Shown: in pieces, positions 18,682 through 30,296 of the stretch | Position numbering within the stretch: position 1 is the stretch's first letter | How the letters are laid out: the number at the start of each line of letters is the position of its first letter | DNA from: Chitinispirillaceae bacterium | GTDB taxonomy: Bacteria > Fibrobacterota > Chitinivibrionia > Chitinivibrionales > Chitinispirillaceae | Length of the DNA stretch: 36,858 nucleotides | NCBI GenBank assembly: GCA_016930275.1 | Contig: JAFGHA010000191.1 | Coordinates: forward strand, 1 to 36,858 | Direction: 5' to 3' | The notes under the pieces: generated by a model | Told to the model about the DNA's origin: nothing | Seen by the model: the letters and a program-made list of their open reading frames with translations, nothing else | The model's database searches: none | Made by a program: the position numbers and the translations under genes

Positions 18682-19752
18682 ATGGCTGAAGATTCAGCGG
18701 AAGAAAAAACCGAAGCCCCATCCGAGAAAAAGCGACAGGACGCACGGGAGAAGGGAACGGTTGCCAAAAGTACCGAGATCAATTCGGTCGTGGTACTTAT
18801 TACCGCTCTTATCATGCTCAAACTGCTCGGACCGTGGATGTGGGAAGAGTTGACCAGAAGCACCACCGATTTTCTTTCCGCAATTTCGAATACCGGGTTG
18901 ACCGATGCCGGACTCATCCGGTTCATCCATAAAGGTCTGATCCTTCTGGCGAAGATCACGCTGCCGGTTGCAGGTTCGATCATGATCATGGGAATCGTCG
19001 CGAATATCGCACAGATCGGTTTTCTTTTCACCACGAAACCGCTGGTGCCGAATATCGAAAAGATCAATCCGATCAGCGGATTAGGACGGTTTTTTTCGCT
19101 CCGGTCGATTTTCGAAACGGTGAAAAATATCGCGAAACTGACGGTGATCGGATTTGTCGCCTACCTGACGCTCAAGGGTGAATTTCCGAGAATGGTACAG
19201 CTTGCCGATACGCAGATCGGAACGATCTGGCTTTTCATACTGAACATCTCGTTTAAAATACTGCTGAGGATCGCCCTGGTGCTGCTGATTGTCGCGATAC
19301 TTGACTATGCGTATCAGCGGTACGATCATGAGAAGCGTTTGCGGATGAGTCATCAGGAAATAAAAGAGGAACGCAAACAGCTGGATGGTGATCCGCAGAT
19401 CAAAGCGAGAATCCGTTCGATGCAGCGCGAGATGGCGCGCAGAAGAATGATGGAGCAGGTGCCCAAGGCGACGGTGGTGGTAACCAACCCTACCTACATC
19501 GCGATCGCGCTCCGGTATGAGCCGGCCGAGGGCGATGCTCCGGTAGTAGTTGCCAAAGGAAAACGGGTGATTGCCGAGCGCATCAAACAGCTGGCCCGTG
19601 AGCATGGAATTCCGATCGTGGAGAACAAACCGCTTGCACGTGCCATGTACGACAAGGTTGAACCGGGTCTGCCGATTCCGGTGGAATTTTTCACGGCGAT
19701 CGCCGAAATAATGGCATATGTCTATCGCCTGAGGAACAGGAGTGCCGCATGA
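18682..19752 (+). CDS. flhB: Flagellar export switch protein FlhB (NPTY instead of NPTH)
   Basis: 356 residues. A charged N-terminus with the typical EEKTEAPSEKKRQDAREKG is followed by four TM helices (about 30-210). The linker carries SHQEIKEERKQLDGDPQIKA and a cytoplasmic domain (about 225-350) follows. FlhB controls the switch from hook to filament export, and autocleavage between N and P of its NPTH site conditions this. Here the site, at N269-P270, reads NPTY followed by IAIALRYEP, so the His is Tyr. The remaining cytoplasmic domain looks intact (ERIKQLAREHGIPIVENKPL, ARAMYDKVEPGLPIPVEFF). The stop overlaps the next gene by ATGA. Confidence 0.95.
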   Translation: MAEDSAEEKTEAPSEKKRQDAREKGTVAKSTEINSVVVLITALIMLKLLGPWMWEELTRSTTDFLSAISNTGLTDAGLIRFIHKGLILLAKITLPVAGSIMIMGIVANIAQIGFLFTTKPLVPNIEKINPISGLGRFFSLRSIFETVKNIAKLTVIGFVAYLTLKGEFPRMVQLADTQIGTIWLFILNISFKILLRIALVLLIVAILDYAYQRYDHEKRLRMSHQEIKEERKQLDGDPQIKARIRSMQREMARRRMMEQVPKATVVVTNPTYIAIALRYEPAEGDAPVVVAKGKRVIAERIKQLAREHGIPIVENKPLARAMYDKVEPGLPIPVEFFTAIAEIMAYVYRLRNRSAA

Positions 19753-21749
19753 AAAGAGCAACCTTATGCAGTATCGTTGCCGCGATGATGAGCGTAGTCT
19801 GGTATATTCACTGTTCACCGGTTTCCACGCAACCGGATACCGGTGAAGGACCCGCGCTGCTGCAGCTGAGTCTCGAGGAGACCGGCAGGAGCGTCGCTGA
19901 ATTTTCAGGAGCTCCTATCCCCGCAACGGTCATGCTTGATCGTGACACCCTGTTCAATGTGCTCACCTGGCATACCGGAGCGGGGTATCCGCTCTATTCC
20001 GATACCGTTCTGAATACGAAGGCGAGAAAATTTACCGTCGAATTATACTGGACCACGTATCCCCGCTACAAGGATACCACCGATAATATTTACTACGATA
20101 CCGTATGGGTGAGCATCGGCGGCGGACTAAAGAAGAGCAACAAGGTAAGGATCAAGGTAACCAATCTGCCGATTGTGGTCGACAGTGCCCGTTTCGACAC
20201 CATTGCGTTCCTCGGGCAGGATACCGTATGGCAATGCTCGCTTCCCCAGATGGTGCAACCATCCTATCCATTCACCATTTTCGCGCGCGATCTCGACAAC
20301 AAGCAACCGATGATACAGGTACTGGGAAACAAAGGTACCATTACGCACGACGGGACCAATCCGCTGGAGATGGAATATCTTCTTCCGGAAGGCGATTTCT
20401 GCGATACCATCGATTTTATCATTTTCGATCAGCAACGCGGGCAGGCATTCAGAACGCTGGTGGTGAATCATACAACTCCTAACAGACGGCCGGTGATCGA
20501 CAGTGTGCAGGTGAGATCAACCATGCTCAATGCATCGTCGATGGTAAACGGAGTGTACCGGGTGGCTTTCTTTTCATTCGATACGCTGAAATTGAGAGTG
20601 TTCGCGCATGATACACTCGGTTCGGTGAAGGGGTATGAATGGAGTGCATTGAGTAACAGTATCGAGATCGATTCAACGGCAGGATATCGTGCCACCTATG
20701 TGTGTGGCGATGCCGACTGCACCGATACACTCAGAGATTCTTCAGTATCGGTTGATGTGATCACCGTCAAGGTGTACGATAATCGCGGTGACAGCGCAGT
20801 GCGGAAAATCGAACTCCTGAAAGGGGAAATCAATCAGCCGCCGAAAATCGGGAGCCTGCTGATCGGTGACGATGAAGTCTCGTTTACCGATACCTCCGCA
20901 AAAGTCACCGTTGCCGGAGGAAAATCGTATCTGGTGGCGGTTGAATGCAGCGATCCTGAAAACGATGAGGTTTCGGTAACATGGACCGGTTCTCCGACGT
21001 CACGATTTTCAGGAAAAACGGATTCGACGATTCTTTATACCGCTCCATCAACGATCGGCACCGATACATTGCGTATCAAAGTTTCCGATGGAGAAACGGC
21101 AATTGTACGTCGGCTGCTTTTTGCCGTGACCGACATCCTTCCCCGATTTGACAGTCTGACGGTTGCGGATACGGTATTTACCGGTATCGATTCCGTATTC
21201 AGTCTTGAAGTGGTTCCGGGCGATACACTGCTTTGTATCGGGTATGCAACCGATCCGGATACCGGTGATGCGATGTCGTATGGCTGGTCTTCGGAAGGCG
21301 ACGGAAGTTACTACGTAAGAATCGAAAATAGAGCACGATATATCTTGCCGGATCCGCTGGTAAAAGATACTATTATACTGACAATACAAGATGGGGAAGC
21401 TCAATTGGTTAGAAGAGTAATCTGTGCTCCGGCGAACCGTGCACCGGTAATTGACAGCATCACCGGGGATGATCTGCGGCTGACCGGGAACGCCGCGTTT
21501 TTAAATGATACCGCCGCCCCAGCCGATACCGTCGTGTTTGCAGCGTTCGGCCATGATCCCGAGGAAGCGTCGCTGAGCTGGCTGTGGAACGCGTCGGATA
21601 CCACGCTGCTCGGTTCCCGTACGGCTTCATTCATCAATTATTACTGTCGTAATTCCAATTACATCGATACGGTGTCGGTAACCCTCGAGGATGAGAAAGG
21701 GGCTGTCGCCGTCAGGAAGATTATTCTGACGGTTATCAAAACAAAATGA
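19749..21749 (+). CDS. Large exported Ig/PKD-like module protein inside the export operon
   Basis: 666 residues, not recognised as any flagellar protein. An N-terminal hydrophobic segment (about 5-20) ends at YIHC-SP, a poor lipobox, so it may be a lipoprotein or a signal-peptidase-I substrate. After ~220 residues of beta-rich sequence come four Ig/PKD-like modules of about 100 residues, starting near residues 245 (NRRPVIDSV), 362 (NQPPKIGSL), 464 (LPRFDSLTV) and 563 (NRAPVIDSI). Each has a SDPENDEVSVTW-like or DPDTGDAMSYGW-like strand in the middle. It overlaps both flhB (ATGA at 19749) and flhA (ATGA at 21746), so it is translated together with the export gate. Function unknown: a periplasmic or surface partner of the basal body is possible. 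Confidence 0.85.
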   Translation: MKRATLCSIVAAMMSVVWYIHCSPVSTQPDTGEGPALLQLSLEETGRSVAEFSGAPIPATVMLDRDTLFNVLTWHTGAGYPLYSDTVLNTKARKFTVELYWTTYPRYKDTTDNIYYDTVWVSIGGGLKKSNKVRIKVTNLPIVVDSARFDTIAFLGQDTVWQCSLPQMVQPSYPFTIFARDLDNKQPMIQVLGNKGTITHDGTNPLEMEYLLPEGDFCDTIDFIIFDQQRGQAFRTLVVNHTTPNRRPVIDSVQVRSTMLNASSMVNGVYRVAFFSFDTLKLRVFAHDTLGSVKGYEWSALSNSIEIDSTAGYRATYVCGDADCTDTLRDSSVSVDVITVKVYDNRGDSAVRKIELLKGEINQPPKIGSLLIGDDEVSFTDTSAKVTVAGGKSYLVAVECSDPENDEVSVTWTGSPTSRFSGKTDSTILYTAPSTIGTDTLRIKVSDGETAIVRRLLFAVTDILPRFDSLTVADTVFTGIDSVFSLEVVPGDTLLCIGYATDPDTGDAMSYGWSSEGDGSYYVRIENRARYILPDPLVKDTIILTIQDGEAQLVRRVICAPANRAPVIDSITGDDLRLTGNAAFLNDTAAPADTVVFAAFGHDPEEASLSWLWNASDTTLLGSRTASFINYYCRNSNYIDTVSVTLEDEKGAVAVRKIILTVIKTK

Positions 21750-23836
21750 ATGCTCCGAATTTCAGCTCTTCGGTCTCGTATGCCCTCAATTCACCGGTAG
21801 CGAAGACCCTGGCGCGTCAGCGCGATCTGATCATCATCCTGGGAGTGATCGGGATTCTGGTTGTGATGGTGCTGCCGCTTCCTACGGCGATGATGGATCT
21901 GCTGCTGACGCTCAACCTCTGTCTGGCGCTGATCATTCTGCTCGTTTCGATGTATACCCGTGAAGCACTTGAATTTTCGGTATTTCCATCGCTGCTTCTC
22001 ACGGTTACGCTCTTCAGGCTTTCGCTGAACGTCGCCACGACACGGCTCATTCTCAGTCAGGCCGATGCCGGGCGGGTTGTGGAGGTATTCGGTACGTTCG
22101 TTACCCGCGGCAATATGGTGGTGGGAGCGATCATTTTTCTGATTATCGTTATCATTCAGTTTGTCGTGATCACCAAAGGTGCGGGACGTATCGCCGAAGT
22201 GGCCGCACGGTTCACCCTCGATGCGATGCCGGGAAAACAGATGGCGATCGATGCCGATCTCAATGCCGGGCTCATCAACGAGGAACAGGCGCGGTTTCGC
22301 CGGGTTCAGATTTCACGGGAGGCCGATTTTTACGGGGCGATGGACGGCGCATCAAAGTTCGTGCGGGGTGATGCGATCGCCGGAATCCTGATCACGATCA
22401 TCAATATCGTGGGAGGGTTCATCATCGGTGTGGCGCAGTTGCGGATGTCGTTCACCGGTGCACTTGGTACGTATACATCGCTTACGATCGGTGACGGTCT
22501 GGTATCGCAGATTCCGGCGCTCATGATTTCAACGGGGGCCGGCATTCTGGTGAGCAGAGCGGCCTCGCAGACCGATCTGGGGCAGGAGATCACCACGCAG
22601 ATTTTCTCCCGTCCGCGGATTCTGGGGGTGGCAGGTGCAATGATGCTGTTTTTCGCCCTTATTCCCGGATTCCCGAAAGTGCCGTTTATCGTTCTGGGGC
22701 TAGGCAGTCTCGCGGCCACCTGGATCGGATCACTGCGTCAGAAAGAGGAAGTACGCACCAAGGAAGTGGAGTCCGCGGCTCCCAAAAAACAGGAAGAACG
22801 CATCGAGGATTATCTGCACGTCGATCCGATGGAACTCGAGATCGGGTACGGGCTCATCCCGCTTGTGGATGTCAAGCAGGGAGGAGATCTGCTCGACCGG
22901 ATCACCATGATCAGGCGCCAGCTTGCCACCGAATTAGGGATCATCATTCCTCCCATCAGGATACGCGACAACATCCAGCTCAAGCCCAATGAATACCGGA
23001 TTAAAATCCGGACGATTCTCGTTGGAAACGGTGAACTGATGAGCGGCGCCTATCTGGCGATGGATCCCGGCAGCGCAACGAAAAAGATCCGCGGTATCGA
23101 AACGGTGGAACCCGCGTTCAATCTGCCGGCGCTCTGGATTACCGAAAGCCAGAAGGAGGATGCGGAGCTTTCCGGGTACACGGTGGTCGAACTGCCGGCC
23201 GTTCTGGCGACCCATCTCACCGAGATCATCAAACGGCACGCCGACGAGATTCTCACCCGTCAGGATGTACGCAGCCTGCTCGATACTATCAAGGAGAAGA
23301 ACGCCACCGTCGTTGACGAGCTGGTACCGGGACTGCTTTCGGTGGGAGACGTGCACAAAGTGCTGCAGAATCTGCTGCGTGAACGGGTATCGATCCGCGA
23401 TCTGGTGCTGATCCTCGAGACGCTGGCGAACGTGGCGCCGCGCAGTAAAAACAGCGAACTGCTTTCGGAATACGTCCGTAACGCACTCGCTTCACGGATA
23501 TGTGAAACCTATAAAAATGAGGACAACGTCATCCCGGTGATCACCCTCGATCCGAATCTGGAAGCACGTCTGGAAGGGGCACTGCAGGAGGTCGACGGCG
23601 CGTTCCGGTTTGCGCTGCCGCCGTCGGATGTCGGAAGAATAATCGAAAAAACAAACGCTGTCGTCGAACAGGTGCGTACTACCGGCGAGGTACCGGTGGT
23701 GATCTGTGCACCTACGATCCGGAGTCAGTTCAAGCGTCTCATGGAGAGCAGTCACCGCGATCTGGTGGTGCTCTCGTACAACGAAATCGTGGCCGGAGTG
23801 GAGATCCGTTCGATGGGGATGATTTCGCTTGGATAA
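21746..23836 (+). CDS. flhA: Flagellar export gate protein FlhA
   Basis: 696 residues. The N-terminal half has eight or so TM helices and the conserved FHIPEP region (FRLSLNVATTRLIL, VVGAIIFLIIVIIQFVVITK, RFTLDAMPGKQMAIDADLNA, then RADFYGAMDGASKFVRGDAI-like sequence and IQIPALMISTGAGILVSRA-like sequence). The cytoplasmic C-terminal domain (about 340-690), which forms the nonameric ring docking substrates and chaperones, is complete, with VDPMELEIGYGLIPLVD and EIIKRHADEILTRQDVRSLL. The start overlaps the Ig-module gene by ATGA. A 140-bp gap without a clear terminator separates it from flhF. Confidence 0.96.
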   Translation: MNAPNFSSSVSYALNSPVAKTLARQRDLIIILGVIGILVVMVLPLPTAMMDLLLTLNLCLALIILLVSMYTREALEFSVFPSLLLTVTLFRLSLNVATTRLILSQADAGRVVEVFGTFVTRGNMVVGAIIFLIIVIIQFVVITKGAGRIAEVAARFTLDAMPGKQMAIDADLNAGLINEEQARFRRVQISREADFYGAMDGASKFVRGDAIAGILITIINIVGGFIIGVAQLRMSFTGALGTYTSLTIGDGLVSQIPALMISTGAGILVSRAASQTDLGQEITTQIFSRPRILGVAGAMMLFFALIPGFPKVPFIVLGLGSLAATWIGSLRQKEEVRTKEVESAAPKKQEERIEDYLHVDPMELEIGYGLIPLVDVKQGGDLLDRITMIRRQLATELGIIIPPIRIRDNIQLKPNEYRIKIRTILVGNGELMSGAYLAMDPGSATKKIRGIETVEPAFNLPALWITESQKEDAELSGYTVVELPAVLATHLTEIIKRHADEILTRQDVRSLLDTIKEKNATVVDELVPGLLSVGDVHKVLQNLLRERVSIRDLVLILETLANVAPRSKNSELLSEYVRNALASRICETYKNEDNVIPVITLDPNLEARLEGALQEVDGAFRFALPPSDVGRIIEKTNAVVEQVRTTGEVPVVICAPTIRSQFKRLMESSHRDLVVLSYNEIVAGVEIRSMGMISLG

Positions 23837-25239: not shown

Positions 25240-26129
25240 ACGATCAGGCACAGCGGCTGCGGGAACTCGCGGTCGATCAGCAGCTCTCATCACCCCGTAA
25301 AGAAACTGGTGCCGGCAGTGTCCGGCGGGCGAAAAATGCTCCGCAGAGTATCTCGGTAACCAGCGGCAAGGGAGGAGTCGGCAAAACCAATTGCGCGCTC
25401 TTTCTGGCGACCGCATTCGCCGCGATGAAAAAGCGCGTTCTGCTGCTCGATGCCGATCTGGGTCTGGCGAATGTCCATATTCTTATGGGTATAGCACCGC
25501 GGAAGACGATTGCCGACGTGGTTGCCGGAACCTGCCGGATCAATGAGGTGGTGACCACCACTCCTGGTGGATTCGATATCATTCCCGGTGCATCGGGCCT
25601 CGAAAAGATGGCGATACTCGACCGCGGGCGACTGGAGCTGCTGCAGAGGGAATTCCGGCGGCTTGAAACCCGGTATGATCTGCTGCTGGTCGATACCGGT
25701 GCGGGAATCGGTACCGCGGTGACGCAATTCGCTTCGGGTACCGACCTCACCCTTGTCGTGATAACGCCTGAGCCGACCTCACTCGCCGATGCCTACGCGA
25801 TGGTGAAAGTGCTTTCAGAACGGACTGACCACCCGATCGGCATCGTTGTCAACATGGCGGTATCCGATCGGGAGGGGAGTGAAATATTTGACAGATTGAA
25901 TGCTCTGGTGGTAAAATTTCTGAAACGGTCGCTTGAGCACTATTGCACACTGCCGCAGTATCGGGAAGTGGGGCAGTATGTCCGTAAACAGCGGTTACTG
26001 CTGCTCGAAAAGAGCAATACCGTGTTTTCGAGGCGCATTTATCAGCTTGCTGCACGGATAGCCGGCAGCGGAACTCCGGTAAAGAGCGGTTTTTTTGACC
26101 GGCTGGTACAGGGGATGCGGAACAAATGA
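25236..26129 (+). CDS. flhG: Flagellar number ATPase FlhG (FleN/MinD-like)
   Basis: 297 residues from GTG 25236. A short N-terminal helix with LRELAVDQQL, the FlhF-activating DQAxxLR-type segment (DQAQRLREL), precedes a deviant Walker A, SGKGGVGKT (43-51). Then come LLLDADLGLANVHILMG, DIIPGASGLEKMA, LLLVDTGAG and VITPEPTSLADAYAMVK. A basic C-terminal tail can bind the membrane. FlhG pairs with FlhF to limit flagellar number. The start overlaps flhF (GTGA) and the stop overlaps the next small gene (ATGA). Confidence 0.94.
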   Translation: MNDQAQRLRELAVDQQLSSPRKETGAGSVRRAKNAPQSISVTSGKGGVGKTNCALFLATAFAAMKKRVLLLDADLGLANVHILMGIAPRKTIADVVAGTCRINEVVTTTPGGFDIIPGASGLEKMAILDRGRLELLQREFRRLETRYDLLLVDTGAGIGTAVTQFASGTDLTLVVITPEPTSLADAYAMVKVLSERTDHPIGIVVNMAVSDREGSEIFDRLNALVVKFLKRSLEHYCTLPQYREVGQYVRKQRLLLLEKSNTVFSRRIYQLAARIAGSGTPVKSGFFDRLVQGMRNK

Positions 26130-26491
26130 TACACCTGATCAGACGTGGAGCACGGATCTTCGGCGGTGGAGTTTTTTTCATCGTGTTTATCGGTCTGCTG
26201 CTGCGCCCGAACGCGTTTGAATTTGACAACCTCGTAACCGCGCTTGCATACGCCTTTATTTCCGGTGCTTCGTGCTGGTTCGTCGGGATCGTTATCAGTG
26301 ATATCCTGATAAAGGGAGTGATCACCGATATCGGTGAGACGGGCATTCCGGAACTTCTCGAAGGGGGACTGCTCCAGCGGGTACAGACAATGCAGGAACA
26401 ACTGGTGCCGGGCGGAACCGAACTGCCGTTCGCTGAACCGGCCGGGGTAACGAAGAAGAATAAACGACGCAAAGCGAAAAAGGGCAACTGA
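26126..26491 (+). CDS. Small two-TM membrane protein between flhG and fliA
   Basis: 121 residues, family not recognised. A TM helix at about 11-28 (IFGGGVFFIVFIGLLLRP) and a second at about 38-62 (ALAYAFISGASCWFVGIVIS) enclose a short loop. A ~35-residue amphipathic region (DIGETGIPELLEGGLLQRVQ) and a very basic tail (KKNKRRKAKKGN) follow. Translation is coupled to flhG by ATGA. Its place between FlhG and sigma-28 suggests a membrane partner of the FlhF-FlhG pair or of motility regulation, but that is inference. Confidence 0.8.
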   Translation: MIHLIRRGARIFGGGVFFIVFIGLLLRPNAFEFDNLVTALAYAFISGASCWFVGIVISDILIKGVITDIGETGIPELLEGGLLQRVQTMQEQLVPGGTELPFAEPAGVTKKNKRRKAKKGN

Positions 26492-29132: not shown

Positions 29133-30296
29133 ATGAACCTTTATATTCACCGCTGTCTGAAAATTCTTACCAGTACCGTTTTACTCTGTGGAGCGGTCAC
29201 CGCTCCGTATTCCGCGGCATCTTCTTCACTGGACTGGTTCGTACAACCGGTTTATGGCTGGATCGATACCTACAGCGACGGGTACGCATTGATCAAACAG
29301 AACGACAAGTGGGGCTACCTCGATGAAACGGCGAAGGTCGTGATCGAGCCGCAGTACGAATCGGCCAGTGCATTCGTGGACGGCATCGCGGTCGTTGACA
29401 AACCGGGCGGGCCGCGGACGTTCATCAACAAACGGCAGGAACCGCTTTTTGCTACTGAATTCAAGGCGGCATTCTCCTTTTCGGAGGGATTGGCCGGGGT
29501 GAAGCAGGACCGTCTGTGGGGTTTCATCAACAGAGAGGGAACGCTGGTGATCGATTATCAATTCGATAATGTCGAAAAATTCAAAGAAGGCAGATGCATC
29601 GTCGGCAAGGATCAGCGTTACGGCATTATCGACGCATCGGGCAGGTATATTGTCGAGCCCGTATTGGCATATGCCAGGTTTTACAGCGAAGGGTATGTTG
29701 CCGTTCAGGTTCCCACTAATCATAAAATCACTTATCTCGACGGCAGGATAGGATGGAAAGCTCCGAAAATGATCGGTACCGTTACCATCGATTACTTCAC
29801 GTATCTTGACAAAAACGGTGCAATGGCTTTTTACAATACCGCACATGAAAAGGAAACGCGTGAGAGCATGAAGGATTCCAAATCGACTTTGAGATACTTC
29901 AACGCGGCGTATCCGTTTTCAACCGGGTATGCTGCGGTGCGACACGACAAACTCTGGGGATTCATCGGCACCGACGGCGTCTACAGCATTCCACCGAAAT
30001 ACAAAAGGATCATACCGTTCGGCGATACCGCCATCGCCTTCGTGCTGAAGCGGGAAGGCAGGTGGCTGGCGATCAATCATTCAGGCGAAAACCTTTTCAC
30101 CATCAAAGCCGATGATGCATGGCCGTATTCGGAAGGATTCGCGAAAATACGTACCGACGGGAAGTACGGCTTTATCGATGACCGAGGGAAAGCGGTAACT
30201 GCCGTGGAATTCGATGACGCCTATGACGTGAAAGGGGGGCTGGCGCAGGTGAAAATGAACGGAAAATGGGGGCTTCTGCGCCTGCGGAAACCGTAA
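29133..30296 (+). CDS. Exported WG-repeat protein
   Basis: 387 residues with a signal peptide (ILTSTVLLCGAVTAPYSAA, cleavage near 30). The rest consists of about six WG-type repeats, in which KWGYLD, LWGFIN, RYGIID, LWGFIG, KYGFID and KWGLLR each begin a strand pair, followed by I-x-P-x-Y/F and F-x-x-G-x-A-x-V. Such repeats form beta-propeller or solenoid-like surfaces of exported proteins, with no fixed enzymatic role. GGGAG lies upstream. A 6-bp hairpin overlaps the stop codon. Confidence 0.88.
   Translation: MNLYIHRCLKILTSTVLLCGAVTAPYSAASSSLDWFVQPVYGWIDTYSDGYALIKQNDKWGYLDETAKVVIEPQYESASAFVDGIAVVDKPGGPRTFINKRQEPLFATEFKAAFSFSEGLAGVKQDRLWGFINREGTLVIDYQFDNVEKFKEGRCIVGKDQRYGIIDASGRYIVEPVLAYARFYSEGYVAVQVPTNHKITYLDGRIGWKAPKMIGTVTIDYFTYLDKNGAMAFYNTAHEKETRESMKDSKSTLRYFNAAYPFSTGYAAVRHDKLWGFIGTDGVYSIPPKYKRIIPFGDTAIAFVLKREGRWLAINHSGENLFTIKADDAWPYSEGFAKIRTDGKYGFIDDRGKAVTAVEFDDAYDVKGGLAQVKMNGKWGLLRLRKP

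Follow-up and report, generated by a model that had tools for sequence, protein, structure and literature searches.

The genes flhB and flhA, which encode parts of the flagellar export gate, are separated in the stretch of DNA analysed here (the window, 36,858 nucleotides from a Chitinispirillaceae bacterium) by a gene for a protein of 666 residues. What is a gene for an exported protein built of Ig/PKD modules doing between two export-gate genes, and is its product part of the flagellum? We find that association of the protein with the flagellum is well supported, while we infer its exact role and the side of the membrane on which it lies. The reading we favour, and to which we give about an even chance, is that it is a Fibrobacterota-specific envelope lipoprotein dedicated to the flagellum, with a role in assembly or bracing.

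The coordinates, length and frame of the open reading frame, which runs from an ATG to a TGA, were checked and are collected with those of its parts in the table. The earlier note was right that the gene overlaps both of its neighbours by ATGA, with the stop of flhB at 19752 and the start of flhA at 21746; the identical 4-nt overlap with flhB is found in G003, G025, G027, G032, G035, G041, G043, G064 and G152. Because the gene has these overlaps and a Shine-Dalgarno sequence of its own, and because no clear one precedes flhA in the window, it is plausible, judging from the sequence, that its translation is coupled to that of flhB and flhA. Against this, the flhA genes of G010 and G160, relatives without the lipoprotein gene, are likewise without a clear Shine-Dalgarno sequence. 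A scan for promoters and terminators at the flh genes gave matches no more frequent than in shuffled sequence. The GC content of the gene (51%) is close to that of flhB (52%) and flhA (56%). The block to which it belongs has the order fliOPQR-flhB-lipoprotein gene-flhA-flhF-flhG-fliA; a Pfam scan of the window identified FliO, FliP, FliQ, FliR and FlhB on the 5' side and FlhA and FlhF on the 3' side, with FliK, FlgD, FlgE, MotA, FliL and FliM further upstream and FliA downstream. We also note an open reading frame of 121 aa between flhG and fliA (26126-26491), kept in most of the flagellar loci that were read, and a protein of 387 aa with six WG repeats (PF14903) encoded just 3' of the flagellar block (29133-30296).

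Table. Positions in the window of the predicted lipoprotein gene, its parts and its neighbours
Feature	Position	Strand	Evidence
flhB (context)	18682..19752	+	PF01312, E 2e-129
Shine-Dalgarno AGGAG, within the end of flhB	19738..19742	+	Good, clear match before the lipoprotein gene
ATGA overlap, lipoprotein-gene start and flhB stop	19749..19752	+	Sequence; 4-nt overlap kept in relatives
Gene for the predicted flagellar-locus lipoprotein (666 aa)	19749..21749	+	Open reading frame; orthologues at the equivalent place across the phylum
Lipoprotein-type signal peptide, residues 1-21, and Cys22 (19812-19814)	19749..19814	+	Cys kept in homologues
D1, diagnostic conserved domain, residues 23-139 (W101, S130-N131, V.V.N motif)	19815..20165	+	A1/A3 conservation
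D2, conserved Ig/PKD module 1, residues 140-245, in both architectures	20166..20483	+	D2 profile, A3
D3, Ig/PKD module 2, CX4C motif (Cys319-Cys324)	20484..20831	+	D2 profile
D4, Ig/PKD module 3 (Big_9)	20835..21134	+	Pfam, D2 profile
D5, Ig/PKD module 4	21135..21425	+	D2 profile
D6, Ig/PKD module 5 (PKD_4-like)	21438..21746	+	Pfam, D2 profile
ATGA overlap, flhA start and lipoprotein-gene stop	21746..21749	+	Sequence
flhA (context)	21746..23836	+	PF00771, E 8e-272

The N-terminus of the protein (MKRATLCSIVAAMMSVVWYIHC followed by SPVS) is a signal of the lipoprotein type. An export signal had been recognised before, but its lipoprotein type, ending at Cys22, had been overlooked. Every homologue that has an N-terminus carries Cys at the lipobox position, and the protein of the window is very probably a lipoprotein, as far as its sequence can tell. 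Its lipobox, Y-I-H-C, is non-canonical at -1; the residue at this place is A, G or S, the canonical ones, in most members of the clade with a β-propeller (described below) and F, H, M, T, V or W in most members of the Ig clade. Since the -1 residue is thus variable in most of the class to which the window protein belongs, processing of the signal is likely rather than demonstrated.

What follows the signal is a head of two domains, D1 and D2, and a C-terminal arm. The D1 profile gives a single strong match per protein, while the D2 profile matches the window protein at residues 140-245, 246-361, 363-462, 463-559 and 564-666. As residues 140-245 resemble the C-terminal modules, the protein has five Ig/PKD modules, one more than the four counted earlier, and the N-terminal ~220 residues, taken earlier as unique, divide into D1 (about 23-139), which is indeed diagnostic, and the first Ig/PKD module. 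In Pfam the window protein matches Big_9 at 28.5 bits, above the cut-off of 23.6, and PKD_4 at 23.3 bits, under the cut-off of 27. For D1, neither Pfam nor NCBIfam nor the PDB offers a counterpart, and its profile shows no significant similarity to that of D2; a sequence search of the PDB with the N-domain gave no match, and the single-sequence AlphaFold2 model of this domain (pLDDT 38.6) was of too low quality to be compared with known folds. The residues W79, D95, N117 and D205 (mature-protein numbering) are invariant in a set of 19 diverse N-domains. We note in D3 a CX4C motif (CGDADC, 20703-20720), found at a similar place in several Ig-type relatives, which might possibly form a disulfide loop.

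How far does the family extend? A plain protein search first returned relatives adjoining flhB or flhA in genomes of the window's genus and of several families within its order, and the profiles A1 and then A3 extended the set of homologues to the whole phylum. The D1-D2 profile (A3) finds one copy each in 32 of 168 Fibrobacterota genomes, 62 of which have a detected FlhA. All 32 carriers have FlhA or FlhB, the sole carrier in which FlhA was not found (G026) having FlhB on a short contig, and none of the about 105 genomes without FlhA has a copy, so that among the 168 genomes the D1-D2 head is limited to those with flagellar genes. Within genus g13, G025 has both flagellar genes and the lipoprotein, and G031 (96% complete) has neither. 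Carriers and non-carriers are not independent samples, since one non-flagellate lineage dominates the aflagellate genomes, and most genomes are incomplete metagenome assemblies; G001, a member of the genus of the window, says nothing on the presence of the gene, as the contig breaks off at its flhA. Two observations place the organism of the window in Fibrobacterota: its nearest named flhA locus comes from a Fibrobacteres metagenome assembly (75% identity), and the genome set has a large clade without flagella, in line with the published state of Fibrobacter. Flagella have been reported to be ancestral in Fibrobacterota and lost in the Fibrobacter lineage (PMC4704652). Neither flhA nor flhB nor a lipoprotein is mentioned in the text of that study.

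Outside the phylum, no D1-D2 relative was found among about 285 genomes sampled. No match came from 36 flagellate genomes, one of which (behind L019) proved to be a Fibrobacterota genome without the gene, and three further phyla, with 39, 133 and 82 genomes, gave only weak matches to the Ig-module part. Such weak matches, with E values from 1e-6 to 1e-3, span model positions 75-221, mostly the Ig module rather than D1, and were not counted. In this sample, the earlier suggestion of an accessory of the FCB lineage narrows to Fibrobacterota only. The claim of an undescribed protein tied to the flagellum stands: homologues of D1 lie only beside flhA or flhB, or where a contig ends, and none is present in relatives without flagella, and the profile check set beforehand, for homologues outside flagellar loci or in non-flagellated relatives, found none. 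Nor did we find in the literature a description of this protein or of any gene inserted between flhB and flhA.

The gene lies directly 5' of flhA in 29 of the 31 loci in which the downstream side is visible, the two exceptions being G026, with flhB before the gene and other genes after it, and G008, which has a broken remnant; in G152 and G166 the contig stops before the flhA side can be read. From the locus of genus g34, which is Fibromonas-like, flhB is gone and the lipoprotein gene still precedes flhA, as in L182, where the order is fliK-flgD-lipoprotein gene-flhA. The arrangement is kept over about a dozen Fibrobacterota families and is therefore not due to chance. In two genomes of one genus, G166 (L214) and G167 (L199:2453-5185), flhB and the lipoprotein gene share one stop-free frame of at least 812 and 910 aa, respectively. 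There is no ATG between the two parts, and an in-frame GTG would yield a good signal peptide, so that either a fusion or an internal GTG start would fit. Two further observations concern FlhA and FlhB themselves. Genus g40 (L196 and L210, in G163 and G161) has a second, very divergent FlhA/FlhB pair, which perhaps belongs to another export system, and nearly every flagellate relative encodes a short protein that matches FlhB over its C-terminal part alone (PF01312 positions 262-335; for example G000:C215:8827-9045).

Comparison of the homologues indicates that the Ig array is not the conserved part of the protein. In the order of the window the arm is an array of Ig/PKD modules, in proteins of 496-1025 aa, and in the other deep clade a β-propeller stands in its place, whose profile matches NHL-type propellers in the PDB (the designed Pizza protein Pizza6, E 3e-23; PknD, E 1e-10). 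The D1-D2 head is common to both architectures. In the FlhA tree the propeller carriers form one clade (97/93) and the Ig carriers another (100/100), with non-carriers scattered among them, and the N-domain tree has the same deep split (100/99) and most of the subgroups of the FlhA tree. Horizontal spread within the phylum, a candidate that we considered, is unsupported given this agreement. On well-supported branches of the FlhA tree there are at least five changes to absence, and at least five flagellate lineages are without the gene. In G008 the copy is frameshifted and truncated after about two modules, and flhA lies 24 kb off behind other genes; this is decay in progress. On its contig C117 (L132-L133) the decaying gene is followed by short repeats and by the 24-kb stretch that parts flhB from flhA, which holds carbohydrate-enzyme-like genes. 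The two trees and the G008 remnant together fit a single gene in the phylum ancestor, inherited vertically with the operon, whose arm was exchanged once and which was lost at least five times without loss of flagella. The absence of the gene from these flagellate lineages and its decay in G008 also mean that no universal step of the Fibrobacterota flagellum needs the protein, which, on this comparative evidence, is dispensable and accessory. The N-domain diverges much faster than FlhA (identities of 19-61% versus 58-88%), as would also fit a surface protein that binds a ligand.

We infer lipidation, an outer-membrane or periplasmic location, a docking partner and a role in assembly or bracing along the following lines. 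The lipoprotein would be translated in a coupled fashion with FlhB and FlhA, which points to a low amount and to synthesis early, when assembly of the basal body begins. Export by Sec would be followed by cleavage by signal peptidase II and attachment of lipid to Cys22. The N-terminal unit of D1 and D2 would then dock onto a flagellar structure in the periplasm, and the interchangeable arm, be it Ig/PKD array or β-propeller, would reach another layer of the envelope. Most likely the protein would aid passage of the rod and hook through the envelope or brace the basal body against the outer membrane. A role as a sheath, one of those proposed in the earlier note, or as a filament-like component is unlikely for the product of a single-copy gene coupled to export-gate genes.

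Other explanations must be weighed against this one. It is possible, though we think it doubtful, that the protein is a structural scaffold, a ring or collar round the P and L rings or the stators that increases torque or keeps the motor in place within the envelope. Motor scaffolds such as the accessory disks of Campylobacter or Vibrio are typically lineage-specific and dispensable, as the lipoprotein is, and a predicted lipid anchor with a long modular arm (496-1025 aa) would suit such a part; but the translational context shared with flhB and flhA is one of low copy, neither Pfam nor NCBIfam finds a known scaffold or peptidoglycan-binding domain in the protein, and a literature search found no cryo-electron tomography of any Fibrobacterota motor. 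A more specific idea concerns FlgH, the L-ring protein, which is a lipoprotein in E. coli. Nearly all flagellate genomes encode it, and we therefore rejected the lipoprotein as a replacement for the L-ring. The protein might instead anchor the L-ring in the outer membrane, standing in for the lipid missing from the FlgH of this phylum, which has an ordinary signal peptide and no lipobox Cys in nearly all members read. FlgH is predicted to be non-lipidated also in lineages without the lipoprotein (G006, G009, G015, G011, G017, G034, G029 and G037), so the two show no reciprocal pattern, and the idea of a lipid substitute is unsupported and, in our estimate, highly improbable. We note that nearly all the flgH products read (L224-L255, from G000 and others) are without a lipobox Cys with or without the lipoprotein gene, G024 being ambiguous.

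Could the gene serve a function other than that of the flagellum beside which it lies? Its product could be a surface adhesin or sensor, with an Ig or propeller arm for the binding of polymers or glycans close to the flagellar pole. The arm diverges rapidly and was swapped, Big_9 and PKD modules are frequent in proteins of the cell surface, attachment to polymers is a trait of Fibrobacterota, and one termite genome encodes a fibro-slime protein with a FlgD domain (PMC4704652). Nevertheless, we hold this to be unlikely: the gene is coupled to flhB and flhA of the export gate and not to late genes or genes for attachment, it is strictly single copy and missing from genomes without flagella, and the part that is conserved is D1-D2 and not the arm. 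Alternatively, an unrelated lipoprotein gene that inserted a single time, in the ancestor of the phylum, between flhB and flhA may have persisted as a hitchhiker. One ancestral insertion would be enough, and the gene is dispensable and fast-evolving; yet the frame has been preserved over the deepest splits of the phylum, the gene remains with flhA where flhB has moved, and it is never found without flagellar genes, which leaves a mere hitchhiker very unlikely. We regard as distinctly unlikely, too, a basal-body part at the export gate itself, in which D1-D2 would contact FlhB and FlhA or the base of the rod and the arm would report crossing of the envelope; in the f14 genus this would entail a true fusion of FlhB and lipoprotein, released through autocleavage of FlhB and the action of signal peptidase II.

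None of 73 flhA loci with flhB from outside Fibrobacterota has an inserted gene between the two (the genes lie at most 246 nt apart), which makes a coupled insertion kept across a phylum unusual. If the envelope lipoprotein that we favour is a part of the flagellum, it represents a new accessory family for a much-studied machine. It was found by synteny where annotation by homology fails, its head being without a match in Pfam, NCBIfam or the PDB. Since close relatives differ in whether they carry the gene, and one head comes with either of two arms, the family constitutes a natural experiment through which its function is testable by comparison of motors.

Lastly, we compare the lipoprotein with known systems. 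In other bacteria, FlgP and FlgH are flagellar components of the envelope that bear a lipid anchor; neither matches the lipoprotein in sequence, and Fibrobacterota genomes encode a separate FlgH. Modular surface proteins with Big_9 or PKD domains resemble it only in the C-terminal arm, the D1 head and the locus being specific to the family. PorE (PG1058) of the Bacteroidota type IX secretion system (T9SS) is a predicted outer-membrane lipoprotein that combines a β-propeller with an Ig-like fold and acts as a scaffold of the secretion machine (PMC5053529). PorE belongs to the T9SS, and of its set of domains (TPR, β-propeller, CRD and OmpA_C) the family described here has the propeller in the sister clade only and neither TPR nor OmpA_C; D1 is unrelated to any library family. 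FlhE, the exported protein of the flhBAE operon, is dispensable for swimming and has been proposed to act as a chaperone in rod assembly (PMC11247099). Like the lipoprotein, for which Sec export is predicted, FlhE is Sec-exported, encoded with flhB and flhA and lineage-specific in its role. Unlike it, FlhE is a short protein (130 aa in E. coli), has no lipid anchor described and is encoded after flhA rather than between flhB and flhA. Homology between the two was rejected, as hhalign of A3 against E. coli FlhE gave a probability of 0.6% and Pfam scans gave no match to FlhE (PF06366). FlhE is nonetheless the nearest precedent, an exported protein of an flhBA operon that helps assembly, and by analogy, not homology, the lipoprotein may play a comparable part in Fibrobacterota.
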